Of a stretch of 64,000 nucleotides of DNA, positions 38,547 through 45,316 are shown one piece after another; the first letter of the stretch is position 1, and every line of letters starts with the position of its first letter. Both the position numbers and the translations under genes were made by a program. Origin of the DNA: Anaeropeptidivorans aminofermentans (GTDB taxonomy: Bacteria > Bacillota > Clostridia > Lachnospirales > UBA5962); the NCBI RefSeq assembly GCF_940670685.1, contig NZ_OW711693.1, forward strand, positions 2,604,001 through 2,668,000, given 5' to 3'. The notes below the pieces were generated by a model. It was not told the DNA's origin and made no database searches. It worked only from the letters and a program-made list of their open reading frames with translations.

Positions 38547-39206
38547 ATGGGCAAAGCTTTAAGGCGTAAAAAAACAAGGCCGCGTAAAAAACGCTTAGGT
38601 ATTTTCTTAATGTCTTTAGTGTTTGTGTTTGTTCTGCTTTTTACAGCCTTTATCATAATAGACAGTAAAATATTTCCTCTGGTTCTTGAGGTCTTGGAAA
38701 ACGAGCTTGTTTCAACGGTAAATATGTCCATAAACGAAAGCGCCGCCAAGACGATTTCCCAGTTGGAGCTTACAAGCAGCGATTTTTATGAAAAAAGTGA
38801 ATCGGAGGATGGAAAGATAAATTCCATCGCCGTAAATACCGTATTAATAAACACCATCTGCAATCAGATAGCCGTAGATATTTCCGAAAACTTAAATAAC
38901 ATAGGACCTCAGAAGGTAAGCCTTCCCATAGGAAGCATTGCCGGTATAAAGACCCTTGCGAATATCGGCCCCAGTTATACGGTTACAGCCCTTCCCATGG
39001 GAAACGCCGTAGTAGATTATAATTCCTCTTTTGAATCCGTAGGCATAAATCAGGTAAATTTTCAAATATGGATAAAGGTTGATACAAAAATAAAAGTAGT
39101 AAATCCGCTCCAAACCGCAGAAATAAACATAACTAGAAAGCTTCCTCTTGTAAATACCATAATCAATAATGAGATACCAGCCGTATACTTTAACAATCCA
39201 AAATAA
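38547..39206 (+). CDS. yunB: Sporulation protein YunB family
   Basis: ATG 38547 follows GGAAGGGT; the upstream ATG at 38529 precedes that ribosome site. The 219-residue product has a very basic N-terminus (KALRRKKTRPRKK), one membrane segment (about 18-38) and an extracytoplasmic domain with INESAAKTIS, ISVNTVLINTI-like and LPIGSIAGI motifs found in YunB. In Bacillus, YunB is made in the mother cell under SigE and is needed for full spore formation; in clostridia it is a sporulation marker. A hairpin follows the gene. Confidence 0.88.
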   Translation: MGKALRRKKTRPRKKRLGIFLMSLVFVFVLLFTAFIIIDSKIFPLVLEVLENELVSTVNMSINESAAKTISQLELTSSDFYEKSESEDGKINSIAVNTVLINTICNQIAVDISENLNNIGPQKVSLPIGSIAGIKTLANIGPSYTVTALPMGNAVVDYNSSFESVGINQVNFQIWIKVDTKIKVVNPLQTAEINITRKLPLVNTIINNEIPAVYFNNPK

Positions 39207-39211
39207 ATTTT

Positions 39212-39242
39212 AAGGGAGTGCGCATTATGAAGCCGCTCCCTT
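39212..39242 (+). terminator. Hairpin after yunB
   Basis: AAGGGAGTGCG pairs with CGCTCCCTT around an eleven-base loop, five bases after the stop. No T-run, so possibly a weak terminator. Confidence 0.45.
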
Positions 39243-39285
39243 TATCGCGGGCAGAGATTATCTTCCCCTGGATTTAAGTTGTTCC

Positions 39286-39440
39286 TATAGTAAAATAGCT
39301 TTCGAGGCAGTAATAAAAACCTATTTTCATAAACGGCTTAAATATAATAGAAGCGCTTATATTAAGCCATTCATAGCCAACAAAAATAAAAAGAGCTTTG
39401 CTGACTATAAAAGAACGTTCACCTAGCTTCCCTGTAAGTG
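39286..39440. repeat. Degenerate copy of the palindromic element
   Basis: Begins TATAGTAAAATAG and has GGCTTAAATATA...TATATTAAGCC-like inner arms, the same centre type as the copy at 17266, but the right end is not preserved. Confidence 0.45.
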
Positions 39441-39453
39441 TTTTCAGGTTCAC

Positions 39454-39583
39454 TATAGTAAATTTCACAGAAGGAAGCAATAAAAATCTATTTTTCATAA
39501 ACGGCTTAAACATATAAAATCCCTATGTTTAAGCCGTTCAAAATATGCGATTTTTATTACTGTTTCATTTGAAATTGACTATA
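39454..39583. repeat. Complete TATAGTAAATTT palindromic element, second subtype
   Basis: TATAGTAAATTT and AAATTGACTATA bound a 130-base unit closely matching 17266-17395 in reversed orientation, with the central GGCTTAAACATA/TATGTTTAAGCC arms. It lies in the 564-base gap between yunB and yhaM, which otherwise is AT-rich. Confidence 0.8.
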
Positions 39584-39770
39584 AGTATAAAATACACGGT
39601 TTTGTTACTGTACTCAAATTATTTTACTATATATGGTTTTTATGATAGAATTAAATTGGTTTAAAAATTAAGACAGCATTATTGCCTGTCGGTTTATAAT
39701 AGATTGCTATAAAAGCAGAATATTTTACTGCTTTAAGGCTATAGCCGTATTATTAGAATAGGTGAATTTA

Positions 39771-40721
39771 ATGAGATATATTGAAGATTTTAAAGAAGAT
39801 GACAGAATAATAGACCATTTCCTGTGTAAACAGAAGCACAGCTTAAAGTCCCGCTCCGGAAAAACCTATCTTTCTCTGAAGCTGCAGGATAAAACGGGAA
39901 CCATAGACGCAAAGGTTTGGGAGCTTAATAACGATATTCAAAGCTTTGAAGAAAATGACTATATTAAAGTCGACGGCGTTGTGGTTACCTATCAAAATGA
40001 TGTTCAGCTTAAAGTAAGTAAAATCAGAAAAAGCAAAGATGGAGAATACGATCCCTCCGATTATATCCCCGTTACGGATAAGGATATAACCTCTTTGTAT
40101 AATCAGCTAAAGGAATATATAGCCTCCGTAAGAAATGTTCATATCAGAACCTTGCTTGAAAACATATTTTATAAAAACAGCATCATATCCGAAAACATCA
40201 AAACCCATTCTGCGGCAAAGCAGATGCATCACAGTTTCATGGGAGGGCTTCTTGAGCATACTGTGTCGGTGGTTTCCATATGCCAGTATTTAAGCGATAA
40301 ATATAAATACGTAAACCGGGACCTTCTTATCGCAGGCGCCCTTTTACATGATGTGGGAAAGATTTACGAGCTTTCGTCCTTTCCTGAAAATGAATATACA
40401 GATGACGGCCAGTTAATCGGTCATTTAGTTATGTGCTCGGAGCTTATAGGAAAGGAAGCTTCCAAAATAGATAATTTTCCTCATCAGCTTGAAAGCCTTT
40501 TAAAGCATCTGGTTCTTTCCCATCACGGGCTTTTGGAATACGGCTCTCCAAAAATTCCTCAGACTATTGAAGCCTTTATCCTTCACTGTGTAGACGACAT
40601 GGATGCAAAGGTAAAAATGTTCGAGGAAATGATACAAAGCGACAATACGCAGGGCAATTGGGTTGGATACCATAAAATGCTAGCCAGAAATATAAGAAAA
40701 TCTGATTTCGATGAAAAATAA
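39771..40721 (+). CDS. yhaM: 3'-5' exoribonuclease YhaM
   Basis: ATG 39771 follows AGGTGA; the product of 316 residues begins RYIEDFKEDDRI as in YhaM. An N-terminal OB fold (residues 10-90; LSLKLQDKTGTIDAKVWELN) is followed by an HD domain with HSFMGGLLEHTVSV and GALLHDVGKI, giving the metal-binding His-Asp set, and a later LKHLVLSHHG. YhaM trims RNA and single-stranded DNA ends in Firmicutes. Length and order match the family. Its last 11 bases overlap the next gene. Confidence 0.95.
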   Translation: MRYIEDFKEDDRIIDHFLCKQKHSLKSRSGKTYLSLKLQDKTGTIDAKVWELNNDIQSFEENDYIKVDGVVVTYQNDVQLKVSKIRKSKDGEYDPSDYIPVTDKDITSLYNQLKEYIASVRNVHIRTLLENIFYKNSIISENIKTHSAAKQMHHSFMGGLLEHTVSVVSICQYLSDKYKYVNRDLLIAGALLHDVGKIYELSSFPENEYTDDGQLIGHLVMCSELIGKEASKIDNFPHQLESLLKHLVLSHHGLLEYGSPKIPQTIEAFILHCVDDMDAKVKMFEEMIQSDNTQGNWVGYHKMLARNIRKSDFDEK

Positions 40722-41013
40722 AAATGATTTTATATCTGCCAACGAAATAAATAAATTCGCATACTGCAATTATCAGTGGTATTACGAGAGGCTTTACGGA
40801 GCGTCGGAAATACGCAGGCTCTATAAAGAAAGAAATGAGGCCCTTGGCATAGAAGGCTCCGCCAAGGGCAATTTTTCAAAGGGCCTTGAATTTCATGACA
40901 AATTTTATAAAAAACAAAAGCTCCTGAAATCTTTAAAATTAGCTCTTTTTGTAATAAGTGCAATAGTCGGCCTCATGGCAGGCTTTTTATATTACTATAT
41001 TTACTTACAGTAA
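40711..41013 (+). CDS. N-terminal half of a Cas4-like PD-(D/E)xK nuclease, with membrane anchor
   Basis: A 100-residue protein overlapping yhaM by 11 bases. Residues 8-30 read ISANEINKFAYCNYQWYYER, the pattern of the N-terminal cysteine and aromatic-rich helix of Cas4/Dna2-type nucleases, and KGLEFHDKF at 59-67 corresponds to their G-x-x-x-H catalytic-site motif. Residues 75-97 form one membrane segment. The chain then stops: the TAA is the third base set of a repeat element (41006-41142). The remaining catalytic motifs are in the next gene. I infer that the two encode parts of one enzyme or were once one gene. Confidence 0.65.
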   Translation: MKNKNDFISANEINKFAYCNYQWYYERLYGASEIRRLYKERNEALGIEGSAKGNFSKGLEFHDKFYKKQKLLKSLKLALFVISAIVGLMAGFLYYYIYLQ

Positions 41014-41142
41014 TTTTCTTATAAAGAAACAATAAAACCTTATTCACTTTAACTCAAAAATACGAATTCCTTTCTCAAACGTATATTCTTAAGTTAAAGT
41101 GAATACAGGGTTTTATTACTGTTTAACTTTAAATTTATCATA
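41006..41142. repeat. Complete TATAGTAAATTT element between the two nuclease halves
   Basis: TACAGTAATTTT and AAATTTATCATA bound a 137-base unit, with CTTTAACTCAAAAATACG and its partner in the centre and CTTATAAAGAAACAAT near the left, as in the 34237 and 35597 copies. Its left end supplies the stop codon of the preceding gene. Confidence 0.8.
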
Positions 41143-41251
41143 CAATATGAATAAAATTAAGCTTTGCTTAATCTTATTCACGAATACATTTTTCTTTAGA
41201 AAATGTATAATCAAAACCTATGGTTTATAATACAATAATCCGGCAGACTTT

Positions 41252-41284
41252 AAATATCCCCAGAAGATTATGGGGATATTTTGT
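41252..41284 (+). terminator. Hairpin upstream of the second nuclease half
   Basis: AAATATCCCC pairs with GGGGATATTT around an 10-base loop, followed by T/G-rich sequence. It could end transcription from the upstream gene or sit in the leader of the next. Confidence 0.5.
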
Positions 41285-41315
41285 GGATAATTTCCTTAGA
41301 ATTTTGGTGAAATAT

Positions 41316-41891
41316 ATGAAGGATTATCTTTTAATACTTATACTGGTTTTTTCGGTTCTTTTTGCTGCAAGGCTGATTTATTTTATAATTTCCCATGTAA
41401 AATACCAGGTTAAAAAGAAGAAAATTAAATTTCCCGGTTCAGGATACCGGCTTTTTTACTCTGATGAGAAAAACACCCCCAGAAAAGAAAATGTTATCTA
41501 TTCTAAGCTTTTAAAAAGCGAAAAATACGGCTTACAGGGAAAGCCTGATTATATATTTTCAAAAAGGGGCAAGCTTTTACCTGTAGAGCTTAAAAGCGGA
41601 ACCATAGGAGAAGAACCGCTTCCCCGCTTTGGTGACCTTTTACAGCTTGCGGCGTATTTTATTATTATAGAAGAATGTTTCGACACCCATCCTCCATACG
41701 GTGAGATTATTTACAGCGACTATATGTTTAAAATAAAAAACACGAAAAAAATAAGAAAAGAGCTTTTAGATACAGTAGAAAGTATGCGGCTTATGCTTAC
41801 GGAAGGCCCTATGGACGAGCCTTCCTGCGAGTATGTAAAATGCAGGCATTGCCTTTGCCGAGGAACTGTATGTGAATACTGCGAATTTTAA
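41316..41891 (+). CDS. C-terminal half of a Cas4-like PD-(D/E)xK nuclease, membrane-anchored
   Basis: ATG 41316 has GGTGA upstream; a longer frame from 41220 lacks a ribosome site. The 191-residue product has a membrane segment (about 5-27), then the nuclease core: GKPDYIF (acidic residue), LPVELKSG (the D/E-x-K motif) and LLQLAAYFIIIEE (the Gln-Tyr helix). Near the end, KCRHCLCRGTVCEYC carries the cysteines that in Cas4 complete a 4Fe-4S cluster together with one N-terminal Cys. That Cys is in the previous gene. There are no cas genes or CRISPR array nearby. The role is probably nucleic-acid processing at the membrane, but this is inference. Confidence 0.72.
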   Translation: MKDYLLILILVFSVLFAARLIYFIISHVKYQVKKKKIKFPGSGYRLFYSDEKNTPRKENVIYSKLLKSEKYGLQGKPDYIFSKRGKLLPVELKSGTIGEEPLPRFGDLLQLAAYFIIIEECFDTHPPYGEIIYSDYMFKIKNTKKIRKELLDTVESMRLMLTEGPMDEPSCEYVKCRHCLCRGTVCEYCEF

Positions 41892-41977
41892 TAAGCTGAC
41901 AAAAATGAAAGTTTTTTTTGTTAATTATAAGGGGATACCTACTTAATATAAAATAGAACTGCCATAAGGGGACAGAT

Positions 41978-43363
41978 ATGTTTAAGAAAAACGATGAAAC
42001 TGAAATACTGATTTCCGATATAGGAACAAAGGGCGAAGGTATAGGAAAGATTAATGATTTTGTATTTTTTGTAGACGGGGCTTTGCCCGGGGATATATGC
42101 CTTATAAAAATACTTAAAGTCAATAAAAGCTACGGTTACGGTAAAATTATAGAAATAAGAAAGCCCTCTCCCGACAGGGTTTTATCCCCCTGCCCTGTTT
42201 CAGATAAATGCGGGGGCTGCTCTCTTATGCATCTAAACTATGAGGCCCAGCTTAAACTAAAGCAGAAAAAGGTAAAAGACAGCCTGGAGCGGATAGGCGG
42301 ATTTAAAAATATAGAAGTATCCCCTGTTGTTCCCATGGAAAATTTAAGGGGTTACAGAAACAAAGCTCAGGTTCCCGTAAGAAATGTAAAGGGAAATCTT
42401 GAAGTAGGCTTCTTCGCCAAAAACAGCCATAATTTAATTCCTGTTACCGACTGCTATATACAGACGGAGACTTCCTCTTCTATCCTTGAAAAAATTAAAG
42501 AATACGCTGTCTTAAACGCCATACCTGCCTATGACGAAGAAAACCATTCAGGAATACTTCGCCACGTATTAATAAAAACAGGTTTTAAAACCGGAGAAAT
42601 CATGGTTGTCCTCGCAGTAAATTTAAAAGAAGGAAAGCCTCTCAAAAATCAGGATAGTTTAATTGATTCCCTTAAAGTCGTAGAAGGAATGAAAAGCATT
42701 GTTCTTAACTACAATTCAAAAAAGAACAATACCATACTTGGCATCTCTTCAAAAACCCTTTGGGGTTCCGATTATATAAGCGATTATCTGGGTGAAATGA
42801 AATTTAAAATCTCCCCCCTATCCTTCTATCAGGTAAATCCTGTTCAAACAGAAAAAATGTACAAAAAAGCTCTGGAATTTGCCGATATAAAAGAAACCGA
42901 TACCGTAATAGATGCTTACTGCGGCATCGGAAGCATCTCCCTTTTTCTCGCCCAAAAGGCAAAAAAGGTCATCGGCATAGAAATCGTAGAAGATGCCGTA
43001 AAAGATGCCGAATTTAACGCTCAAGTAAATAATATAAAAAACGCAGAGTTTATAGCCGGCAAATCGGAAGAAGTAATCTACGACCTTATAAATAAAGAAA
43101 TAAAGGCCGATGTCCTCGTTGTCGACCCGCCAAGGAAGGGCTGCGACGAAAGATTCCTTTCCGCTGTAGCAGATTTTATGCCTGAAAAAATAGTCTATGT
43201 CTCCTGCAATCCCGATACCTTAGCAAGAGATCTTAAATTCCTAGGGGAAAAGGGATATAATATAAAGGAAGTTCAGCCCTTTGATATGTTCGGGTTTAGT
43301 TATCATGTGGAGACTGTAATAATGATGACGTCTTGCGGTTTTAAGAGCAAAAGTAGACTTTGA
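41978..43363 (+). CDS. rlmD: 23S rRNA (uracil-C5)-methyltransferase, RlmD/RumA family
   Basis: A 461-residue protein starting after AAGGGGA. An N-terminal TRAM domain (residues 5-62) is followed by the Fe-S cysteines in CPVSDKCGGC with a fourth Cys in VTDCYIQ, and a class I SAM-methyltransferase domain with DAYCGIGSISLFLA. The catalytic nucleophile is in YVSCNPDTLARDL, preceded by VDPPRKGCD. The family methylates U1939 (RlmD) or both U747 and U1939 (RlmCD in Bacillus) of 23S rRNA, or tRNA U54. Which base is modified here is not decided by sequence. Confidence 0.92.
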   Translation: MFKKNDETEILISDIGTKGEGIGKINDFVFFVDGALPGDICLIKILKVNKSYGYGKIIEIRKPSPDRVLSPCPVSDKCGGCSLMHLNYEAQLKLKQKKVKDSLERIGGFKNIEVSPVVPMENLRGYRNKAQVPVRNVKGNLEVGFFAKNSHNLIPVTDCYIQTETSSSILEKIKEYAVLNAIPAYDEENHSGILRHVLIKTGFKTGEIMVVLAVNLKEGKPLKNQDSLIDSLKVVEGMKSIVLNYNSKKNNTILGISSKTLWGSDYISDYLGEMKFKISPLSFYQVNPVQTEKMYKKALEFADIKETDTVIDAYCGIGSISLFLAQKAKKVIGIEIVEDAVKDAEFNAQVNNIKNAEFIAGKSEEVIYDLINKEIKADVLVVDPPRKGCDERFLSAVADFMPEKIVYVSCNPDTLARDLKFLGEKGYNIKEVQPFDMFGFSYHVETVIMMTSCGFKSKSRL

Positions 43364-43390
43364 CCACAAGATGCCGTCGCTTAAAGGAAG

Positions 43391-43438
43391 AAAAGAGGCT
43401 AAAATCCGAGTTAAAATACTCGATTTTAGCCTCTTTTA
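43391..43438 (+). terminator. Long-stem terminator after rlmD
   Basis: AAAAGAGGCTAAAATCCGAG pairs with CTCGATTTTAGCCTCTTTT with a one-base bulge. It resembles in its centre (GGCTAAAAT/ATTTTAGCC) the hairpins at 47468, 53150 and 58311. Confidence 0.85.
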
Positions 43439-43581
43439 GTTTAAAAAGAACAGGGCCGCTTCTGTTATAAACTAGTTATAATTTTATTGGGTATTCATAG
43501 TTAGCAAAACGGGAACAGCTTTTTTTACAAGTTGTTGTTATAATAAAGCTATCTATGTAAGAAAGGGGCAGATGGCGGGTA

Positions 43582-44469
43582 TTGAATTATAGGAAAGAAA
43601 TTGAAAAATGTATTAAATTCATTGAAGACCATATCAAAGAAGATATTACTGTTAAAGAAATTGCCAATCAATCTGGATATTCCCTGTACCATTTTTGCAG
43701 AGTTTTTAATCTATGTAAGGGTGTATCTGTCATGGAATACATACGAGGACGCAGGTTGTCTTTAGCAGCACTAGAATTATTCAATGGCAGAAAAATTATT
43801 GATATTGCTTTTGATTATGGATTTGAAACCCCCAGTGGATTTGCTAAGGCTTTTCGTAAAGCTTATGGTTATAGTCCCACACAGTATATCATACGGATGG
43901 CTCGATATGCTGATACAAAAACAACATTTGAAATTGGAGGTTATATTATGAATCCTGTTATTGTAAAAAGACCTGCATTTAAAGTTGCCGGTTATGGAAT
44001 TAAAACCAATATTACCGGAATTACATATACAAAAGATATTGCATCCTACTGGAGCAATTATAAAGGTGAAAATTTAGAAAGCAAAATGTACAGAATTTTA
44101 AATCCGGCTAAACATGGTGAGGTTGGATTGTGTGTTCCATTATCTGAAGATGGAAATGTAATATATCTTTTAGGTGTAATTGTTGATGACTTCTCAAAGG
44201 CAGAGGAAGATATGCTGACAGCAGAGGTTCCAGAGGCCGAGTATGCAGTTTTTACTACGACTCCTGTAGATACTTCAAATGATGAAGAACAGACGGCATT
44301 TGCAAAGATTATTGCAAGTACATGGAGATATATTTTTGAAGATTGGTTTAAAGACAGTGGGTATATTTACGATGAAAGTAAAATTGATTTTGAATTCTAT
44401 GATGAACGCTGTCATCATAGAAAGGATACTGTTATGGATATTTATATTCCTGTTAGAAAAGTAAAATAA
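43582..44469 (+). CDS. AraC family regulator with GyrI-like effector domain
   Basis: Starts at TTG 43582. The 295-residue product has two AraC helix-turn-helix units at residues 5-105 (VKEIANQSGYSLYHFCRVF and IDIAFDYGFETPSGFAKAF) with the closing YSPTQYI signature. A GyrI-like domain of the kind that binds drugs or other small molecules follows from about 112 to 295. It resembles Rob/SoxS-type activators such as BmrR-like regulators. It is the first gene past the housekeeping block and has base composition like the neighbouring accessory cassettes. The target is unknown; the methyltransferase gene 88 bases downstream is a candidate. Confidence 0.9.
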   Translation: MNYRKEIEKCIKFIEDHIKEDITVKEIANQSGYSLYHFCRVFNLCKGVSVMEYIRGRRLSLAALELFNGRKIIDIAFDYGFETPSGFAKAFRKAYGYSPTQYIIRMARYADTKTTFEIGGYIMNPVIVKRPAFKVAGYGIKTNITGITYTKDIASYWSNYKGENLESKMYRILNPAKHGEVGLCVPLSEDGNVIYLLGVIVDDFSKAEEDMLTAEVPEAEYAVFTTTPVDTSNDEEQTAFAKIIASTWRYIFEDWFKDSGYIYDESKIDFEFYDERCHHRKDTVMDIYIPVRKVK

Positions 44470-44557: not shown

Positions 44558-45316
44558 ATGTTAAATTATTATGGCAGATTGTCTTCAGAGGTATATGATA
44601 TAGATAAACCCATAGGGCATTCTTATGGAGATGTAGAATTTTACATTGATAGACTAAGCTCATGCAGGGGGCATATTCTTGAGCCTGCAACGGGAACAGG
44701 CCGTGTGCTGGTTCCGCTTTTAGAAAGTGGGCTTACAGTAGATGGATTTGACAGTTCAAAAGACATGCTGAATATATGCCATGACAATTGCAGAAAAAGG
44801 GGGCTGAATCCTAAGCTTTTTGAAGCAAAGATGGAGTCTTTTATACAGAATACAGAATATGAGGCAATTATAGTTCCAACGGGAACGTTTCTTCTGCTGC
44901 ACCAAAGAGCGGATTCAATAAGGGCATTGCAGAATTTTCATAAACATTTATGTACCGGAGGACGATTAATTGTTGATATATTCATACAGACAGATTTTTC
45001 TGTAGATACGGTTTCCACAAGAACATGGAGCTGTTCTAATGGTGACATCATTACTTTAGAAAGCAAAATCGTGGAAGTTGACTATATAAATCAATATACT
45101 GTTTCTCATAACAGGTATGAAAAATGGCGCGAGGGAGTGCTTATTCAAACCGAATTAGAGCGCTTTCCGTTACGATGGTATGGACTGGAAGAGTTTAAAT
45201 TGATACTTGAAAGCACGGGGTTTAAAGATATCGTAATTTCTTCAGATTATAAATTTGGGCAGTATCCATCAAATGTTAAAGATGTCATTACTTTTGAGGC
45301 TGTGCCTATTAAATAA
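44558..45316 (+). CDS. Class I SAM-dependent methyltransferase
   Basis: A 252-residue protein beginning after GAAGGGA. It has the nucleotide-binding GHILEPATGTGRVLVPLLE (motif I), GFDSSKDML (motif II) and a later GGRLIVDIF. The N-terminus (YYGRLSSEVYDIDKPIGHSY) is common in small-molecule methyltransferases of Firmicutes. The substrate is unknown. A decayed copy of its last third, with the adjoining downstream DNA, recurs at 59504. This places the gene at one edge of a duplicated segment. Confidence 0.88.
   Translation: MLNYYGRLSSEVYDIDKPIGHSYGDVEFYIDRLSSCRGHILEPATGTGRVLVPLLESGLTVDGFDSSKDMLNICHDNCRKRGLNPKLFEAKMESFIQNTEYEAIIVPTGTFLLLHQRADSIRALQNFHKHLCTGGRLIVDIFIQTDFSVDTVSTRTWSCSNGDIITLESKIVEVDYINQYTVSHNRYEKWREGVLIQTELERFPLRWYGLEEFKLILESTGFKDIVISSDYKFGQYPSNVKDVITFEAVPIK

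Follow-up and report, generated by a model that had tools for sequence, protein, structure and literature searches.

The window analysed here, a stretch of 64,000 nucleotides (nt) from Anaeropeptidivorans aminofermentans (contig NZ_OW711693.1, positions 2604001-2668000 of a 3.76-Mb single-contig genome), carries two small neighboring genes, referred to below as ORF1 and ORF2 (open reading frames 1 and 2), which between them contain the motifs of a Cas4-like nuclease:

40711..41013, + strand: ORF1 (100 aa), the N-terminal half of a Cas4-like nuclease, ending in a membrane helix (predicted orientation N-in)

41316..41891, + strand: ORF2 (191 aa), the C-terminal half of a Cas4-like nuclease, starting with a membrane helix (predicted orientation N-out/C-in)

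The open frame of ORF2 spans 41220-41891, with the ATG at 41316 as the likely start, and its extension to 41220 begins within repeat DNA. ORF1 contains a Cys helix with C19 (within NKFAYCNYQWYYERLYG), the motif G58-x-x-x-H62 and then a hydrophobic C-terminal segment, whereas ORF2 begins with a hydrophobic N-terminus, followed by GKPD (D78), E91-L-K93, Q110...Y114 and C176-x-x-C179...C186. All of the elements that a first-pass annotation, made from the letters alone, had read here are present, namely the Cys helix, GxxxH motif and terminal membrane segment of ORF1 and the membrane segment, Asp, ELK, Gln-Tyr helix and C-terminal cysteines of ORF2. The same annotation proposed that the halves complement each other in the active site and the iron-sulfur (Fe-S) site, and at the sequence level they do: the complete catalytic set (His, Asp, E-x-K and Gln/Tyr) is reached only by ORF1 and ORF2 jointly, and the four cysteines of a putative cluster-binding pattern are distributed as one in ORF1 and three in ORF2. 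The Fe-S pattern of Cas4 consists of one N-terminal cysteine and three C-terminal ones.

We consider it likely that ORF1 and ORF2 together make up a two-subunit, membrane-tethered Cas4-like DNA nuclease, which would assemble from the two chains, hold an Fe-S cluster and cleave DNA. The observations behind this proposal are the conserved two-gene organization, the residues, the topology signals and the co-occurrence of the genes, to which a predicted joint fold is added; the nuclease would belong to the Cas4/AddB/Dna2-like branch of the PD-(D/E)XK superfamily.

Profile searches for both halves took in 392 genomes of the order Lachnospirales. Full ORF2 was found in 86 genomes and ORF1 in the identical 86; the two genes are adjacent and separate in 84 of these carriers, fused in one (G067), and located on different contigs in one (G600). 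The ORF2 profile matched 92 genomes, comprising the 86, two contig-end fragments (G061, G688) and four weak matches, of which the two that were opened (G609, G088) read as ordinary CRISPR (clustered regularly interspaced short palindromic repeats) Cas4, the other two being G654 and G712. The ORF1 profile matched 91 genomes: the 86 carriers, G061 and G647, in which the match is at a contig end, and G020, G705 and G658, whose weak matches were left unopened. An initial search of 96 genomes had recovered ORF2 in 25, the window genome included, with a separate ORF1 directly upstream in 24 and a single fusion, L052. Moreover, in a pattern-limited scan of named loci the pair is split in 39 of 39, in genera including Anaerotignum, Tyzzerella, Cellulosilyticum, Defluviitalea, Niameybacter, Epulopiscium, Chakrabartyella and others; several of these loci are the same contigs as genomes of the 392 set, so that the two sets are not additive. 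Among the carrier records are those of Anaerotignum lactatifermentans DSM 14214, Defluviitalea phaphyphila, Cellulosilyticum ruminicola and Epulopiscium. Except for the fusion, no ORF2 scoring above 120 bits is long enough to hold an N-terminal motif of its own.

Searches beyond the order extend the distribution of the pair to a second class. In a phylum-wide draw of 299 genomes, ORF1 was detected in six, the window genome included. Within the second class, whose genomes, judging by their make-up, may be Thermoanaerobacter/Thermoanaerobacterium, ORF1 is present in 21 of 37 genomes and is accompanied by an adjacent ORF2 in all 21; ORF1 is intact in 19 of these, and in 15 of the 19 the two genes share 4 nt. 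There, a polysaccharide-deacetylase-like gene, read from the sequence, lies downstream, and no yhaM, the gene that precedes ORF1 in the window, was seen in the flanks read, which extend about 1.5 kb to either side of the pair. The neighbors thus differ between the classes, and what stays together in both is the pair of ORF1 and ORF2 itself. A class-wide search with the ORF2 profile (391 genomes) gave eight matches, of which two belong to this order and the other six are weak; among the weak ones, L059, L060, L063 and L064 adjoin genes read as cas1, cas2 or cas7 and were themselves taken to be CRISPR Cas4, and L061 and L062 were left unopened. A phage origin was also considered and set aside: a pattern-limited scan of viral contigs yielded no relative among 57 stretches. 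Of the two possibilities raised by the first-pass annotation, that of a naturally two-subunit membrane nuclease is strongly supported by this survey of relatives, given the separate, adjacent genes in 84 of 86 carriers, the one genome with the halves on different contigs, and the same pair in a second class.

The residues predicted to build the active site are invariant in both halves. Among intact ORF1 frames of at least 60 aa scoring above 50 bits, the key Cys and His are retained in 105 of 105 distinct sequences, and among ORF2 frames scoring above 120 bits, D, E, K, Q, Y and the three Cys are retained in 104 of 104 (the fusion is counted in both sets, and both were selected by profile score). 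Judged from these alignments, the conservation goes beyond chance. With respect to topology, mean hydropathy reaches at least 1.6 over 19 residues in 102 of 104 ORF1 and 93 of 103 ORF2 sequences. More lysines and arginines precede the helix than follow it in 102 of 104 ORF1 sequences, and the reverse holds in 100 of 103 ORF2 sequences, with three ties. Hydropathy and charge together predict that both globular parts are inside the cell.

Profile comparisons assign the C-terminal half to Cas4. ORF2 matches TIGR00372 (cas4) with 68.1 bits against a cut-off of 65, over model positions 42-179 of 180; all 23 ORF2 members tested match this model at E ≤ 0.001, and 17 of the 23 match PF01930 at E ≤ 0.1. 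The fusion L052 falls slightly under the TIGR00372 cut-off (63.5 bits), and in Pfam the ORF2 of the window hits PDDEXK_1 alone, at 20.7 bits, under the cut-off of 22. Alignment with hhalign to two CRISPR Cas4 proteins places ORF2 on positions 84-202 (E 6.8e-13). ORF1 matches no family at a usable score; against the PADLOC model Cas4d it aligns over positions 2-31 (E 0.0014). A joint AlphaFold2 model was computed for L087, read through its in-frame stop as a 314-residue chain, from an alignment of 39 rows: 18 ORF1 and 18 ORF2 rows, picked from 29 each for correct alignment, and three read-through rows. This chain has a mean predicted local distance difference test score (pLDDT) of 80.8 and a predicted template modeling score (pTM) of 0.74, and its best Foldseek match is the type I-C Cas4 8d3l_I (E 4.1e-6). 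Superposition with VIA-align on the Cas4 7mi5_A gives Z 15.3 for 171 aligned residues (root-mean-square deviation 3.8), with model positions 5-309 on Cas4 positions 6-210; further matches are EXO5 (Z 11.7), AdnA (Z 11.5), Dna2 (Z 9.4) and AddB (Z 8.5). ORF2 of the window modeled alone (pLDDT 87.6) covers positions 64-190 of 7mi4_A (Z 12.7, 116 aligned). In these models, the N-terminal part of Cas4 that is missing from ORF2 is the part given by ORF1, and the profile matches of the two halves are in agreement with this. The prediction of a joint structure, which the first-pass annotation had suggested as a check, is favorable insofar as the halves meet in the predicted fold, with the reservation that the read-through had joined them beforehand.

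Several observations weigh against this interpretation. The joint model connects the halves through the read-through stop and five linker residues, which forces their nearness, and the underlying alignment sets the helices of ORF1 against the helix of ORF2. Confidence is low along the C-terminal Cys segment, where the last four ten-residue blocks score 51, 53, 45 and 33. The remote similarity of ORF1 is weak, with hhalign placing it on positions 17-44 of CRISPR Cas4 (E 0.0075, probability 5%), and no sequence match in the PDB was found for it at E ≤ 1. The membrane segments are not universal either: the ORF2 helix is clearly absent in 7 of 103 sequences, all of them in family f19 (L045, L056, L161, L165, L167, L175, L176), and borderline in three more (L079, L085 and L087, the last being the chain that was folded), and in G630 (L152) ORF1 ends short of its membrane helix, one in-frame stop standing between it and the ORF2 frame. 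Furthermore, ORF1 is broken beside an intact ORF2 in 2 of the 21 second-class genomes (G1009, G1074), and the pair is carried by a minority of the genomes in the order (86 of 392). In family f19, ORF1 keeps its own membrane helix while ORF2 is left without a recognizable one. Because the helix is missing from some ORF2 proteins and from the ORF1 of G630, the membrane hairpin is not strictly needed, and anchoring through one half may suffice.

Under the proposed two-subunit arrangement, ORF1 would enter the membrane from the cytosol by its C-terminal helix and ORF2 by its N-terminal helix, such that both globular parts would be cytosolic and the two helices would form a non-covalent version of the hairpin in the G067 fusion. 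ORF1 would contribute the initial helices together with one Fe-S cysteine and the histidine of motif I, and ORF2 the beta core, the Asp, the E-x-K, the Gln/Tyr helix and three Fe-S cysteines. Because neither half has a complete active site, activity would be expected only where the halves come together, on the inner side of the membrane, with DNA ends or single-stranded DNA as the substrate. The chances appear to us evenly balanced that the pair represents, more specifically, an obligate two-subunit nuclease whose active and Fe-S sites are divided over two single-pass membrane proteins, whose assembly in the membrane triggers cleavage of DNA on the inner side of the cell membrane, and which has been kept in two classes of one phylum while hidden in databases as Cas4. 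If so, this would be a natural split enzyme with inactive halves that becomes active only on their meeting, and an end-processing nuclease at the membrane, the point of DNA entry in transformation, conjugation and phage injection.

The spacing of the two genes raises the question of whether they are translated as one. With gene boundaries taken as the longest ORFs, so that N-termini and overlaps are upper bounds, the frames overlap in 74 of 84 genomes, most commonly by 8 nt (13 genomes), as might be expected if programmed frameshifting or readthrough produced one protein from two frames; the single in-frame stop between the halves in G630 and the true fusion in G067 would fit as well. However, all three relative frames occur (39, 38 and 7 of 84), spacings extend up to 206 nt, and G600 has its two halves on different contigs. 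The frame counts and G600 thus lend no support to frameshifting or readthrough, which we regard as very improbable, and two separately translated subunits are the preferred reading. The G600 genome is a draft with about 5% contamination, and its two halves both retain the motifs and hydrophobic segments; if the assembly is right, their separation would favor action in trans. In that genome (L190, L191), yhaM and ORF1 are located inside one contig and are followed by a convergent gene, and ORF2 is located inside another contig with the methyltransferase gene that frequently follows it elsewhere.

The fusion G067 (L052/L184), a protein of 275 aa, is the sole fused homolog among the 86 order carriers, and its halves are connected by a long hydrophobic stretch with two peaks. 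The membrane-hairpin topology guessed in the first-pass annotation is thereby realized in at least one unsplit protein. No methyltransferase gene was seen beside the fusion within the 4.5 kb read, and a dnaX-looking gene lies further downstream. In a free search of the ORF2 tree, L052 falls among the split rows on a long branch, and a tree that keeps all 53 split rows in one group scores 16 log units higher (p value of the approximately unbiased test, p-AU, 0.789); in the yhaM tree, L052 likewise has a long branch and groups with split lineages in a clade of 11 rows with support 94/92. The trees lean opposite ways on whether the unsplit form is ancestral or a re-fusion.

In the window, the space between ORF1 and ORF2 consists mostly of two dispersed repeats, both recognized by repeat matches in the genome:

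about 41006..41137, no strand assigned: dispersed repeat A, ~132 nt, hairpin-forming, carrying the ORF1 stop codon

about 41140..41238, no strand assigned: dispersed repeat B, ~100 nt

Repeat A has at least 42 matches in the genome, counting the query itself and one reverse-strand self-match (a lower bound, 40 of 406 candidates having been scored), and folds with -30.7 kcal/mol (z -6.3); repeat B has 77 matches, the query among them, with 40 of its 116 candidates having been scored. Repeat B directly abuts repeat A, and tandem-like runs occur elsewhere, for example at contig positions 2585416-2586308 and 436218-436648. The first-pass annotation held that a repeat supplies the stop codon of ORF1, and the TAA (41011-41013) does sit inside repeat A, but two adjacent elements are involved instead of one. 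Its other possibility, that an ancestral hairpin gene was split by the repeat, would leave two decaying fragments of a single membrane-hairpin Cas4-like nuclease gene at this locus; the position of the stop, the repeat-filled intergenic space and the existence of the unsplit L052 all speak for such an event. Nevertheless, the relatives are split at the same place without a repeat-sized gap: among the 84 of 86 genomes with separate genes, the gap is widest in the window genome, measuring 206 nt up to the ORF start, and in the other 83 it is at most 54 nt, in addition to the uniformly split named loci. Every invariant residue is kept in both halves here, and the length of ORF1 is ordinary, 22 of 24 separate ORF1s (window copy included) having 90-105 aa. 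Because the ORF1 of relatives ends at a similar length with no room for an element, repeat insertion was not the origin of the split, and we judge decay of a broken gene to be extremely improbable. Given the normal length of ORF1, the repeat changed at most its last residues and shifted ORF2 away. On the two-subunit reading, two dispersed repeats would have entered between the genes in this genome, separating them by ~0.3 kb and destroying neither.

The score of ORF2 above the cas4 cut-off (68.1 versus 65) is what would be expected of a CRISPR-adaptation Cas4 that happens to be split. However, cas1 is about equally frequent in the carriers (20 of 40) and non-carriers (21 of 40) tested, and the only cas4 (PF01930) and cas1 (PF01867) matches of this genome are located ~0.93 Mb from the pair, where a separate, ordinary cas4 is followed by cas1 1.6 kb further on; the absence of CRISPR genes nearby had been noted in the first-pass annotation and is upheld. 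Moreover, the neighbors of the pair look like yhaM, the methyltransferase and other non-cas genes, as read in the stretches themselves and with the flanks not scanned with cas models. A CRISPR adaptation role, for which the cas1 counts offer no support, is unlikely because cas1 is equally common in non-carriers and the genome has its own distant cas4-cas1 locus, and we rate a fortuitously split adaptation Cas4 as highly unlikely.

The pair is embedded between two genes in the window:

39771..40721, + strand: yhaM homolog (OB-fold and HD exonuclease), 5' of ORF1; the listed ORF starts at GTG 39762

41978..43363, + strand: RlmD/RumA-type 23S rRNA (uracil-C5)-methyltransferase homolog (TIGR00479 rumA, 466.8 bits, cut-off 183.55)

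The yhaM homolog is recognized by Pfam HD (6e-14) and tRNA_anti-codon (5.5e-11), and scores 208.6 bits against NCBIfam NF010007 (YhaM), under the model cut-off of 460; its end shares 11 nt with ORF1, an overlap that had already been noted. The rRNA methyltransferase gene is a frequent downstream neighbor of the pair across the order. Co-location of yhaM and this gene in most of the order loci read could be taken to mean that the same two-subunit membrane protein acts on RNA with YhaM, as a membrane RNA-degradation unit, instead of on DNA. Against this, the closest structures are the DNA nucleases Cas4, EXO5, AdnA, MGME1 and Dna2, and the second-class pair has no yhaM in the flanking sequence read. 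Furthermore, a paper on Bacillus pumilus (PMC3896406) places yhaM within a yhaONM cluster that is called putative double-strand-break repair and is listed under LexA. An RNA-directed function thus appears improbable, and a DNA nuclease remains our preferred interpretation.

The yhaONM cluster of Bacillus (YhaO exonuclease, YhaN/SbcE structural-maintenance-of-chromosomes-like ATPase, YhaM) resembles the present locus in that YhaM is encoded next to DNA-end-processing genes, and differs in the names of the partner proteins and in the LexA-type box: with the pattern GAACN4GTTC and at most one mismatch, none was found near yhaM in the window, the nearest being at 44883, and the whole window holds 5 such boxes against 14.4 expected. 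The fold suggests action on DNA ends or single strands, and the YhaM link suggests the same. The likeliest function would be to process DNA ends during repair or to handle incoming DNA at the membrane, a guess that we offer tentatively and with more doubt than conviction.

Compared with Cas4 in its CRISPR and solo forms (TIGR00372, PF01930), the pair has the same fold over both halves, the same H-D-ExK-Q set and the same arrangement of one N-terminal and three C-terminal cysteines. Conventional Cas4 is typically a single soluble chain, whereas here the domain is formed by two polypeptides, with a membrane helix each and a boundary between motif H and the beta core, and without cas1 association. 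The pair accordingly falls outside conventional one-chain Cas4 lacking membrane helices, since 84 of 86 carriers encode it in two genes, whose products mostly have one predicted helix each, and outside CRISPR-associated Cas4, a group marked by cas1/cas2 linkage or occurrence with CRISPR, in view of the cas1 counts and of the 0.93 Mb between the pair and the cas1 of this genome. The PD-(D/E)XK fold is also shared with the Fe-S nuclease domains of AddB, AdnA and Dna2 and with human EXO5. Several of these carry a four-Cys Fe-S site; they are single chains, mostly parts of helicase proteins, in contrast to the two small membrane subunits described here, beside which no helicase was seen. No split or membrane Cas4-like nuclease was found in the open-licence literature, as far as titles and abstract openings among the matches listed go, and a term search of the main text of a Cas4 phylogenomics study (PMC5704561) returned neither "split" nor "transmembrane" nor "yhaM". 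The fold family is the known one of Cas4, and the division of its catalytic domain over two membrane proteins, not found in the literature searched, appears to be a new arrangement. A practical consequence concerns annotation: the NCBIfam cut-off labels ORF2, half an enzyme, as "CRISPR-associated protein Cas4", and ORF1 goes without a usable match.

In some relatives, a small gene of 56-92 aa, whose product ends like DDEVLAKAIKTLL, lies 3' of ORF2 (L041 2033-2236, L055 1878-2102, L101 2905-3102); it was not seen in the window. Rfam at gathering scores gave no match in window positions 39000-43500, and no tandem repeats were found in 39000-44000. A scan of 39400-42050 returned 14 promoter-like sites against 9.3 expected and 8 terminator-like sites against 1.3 expected.

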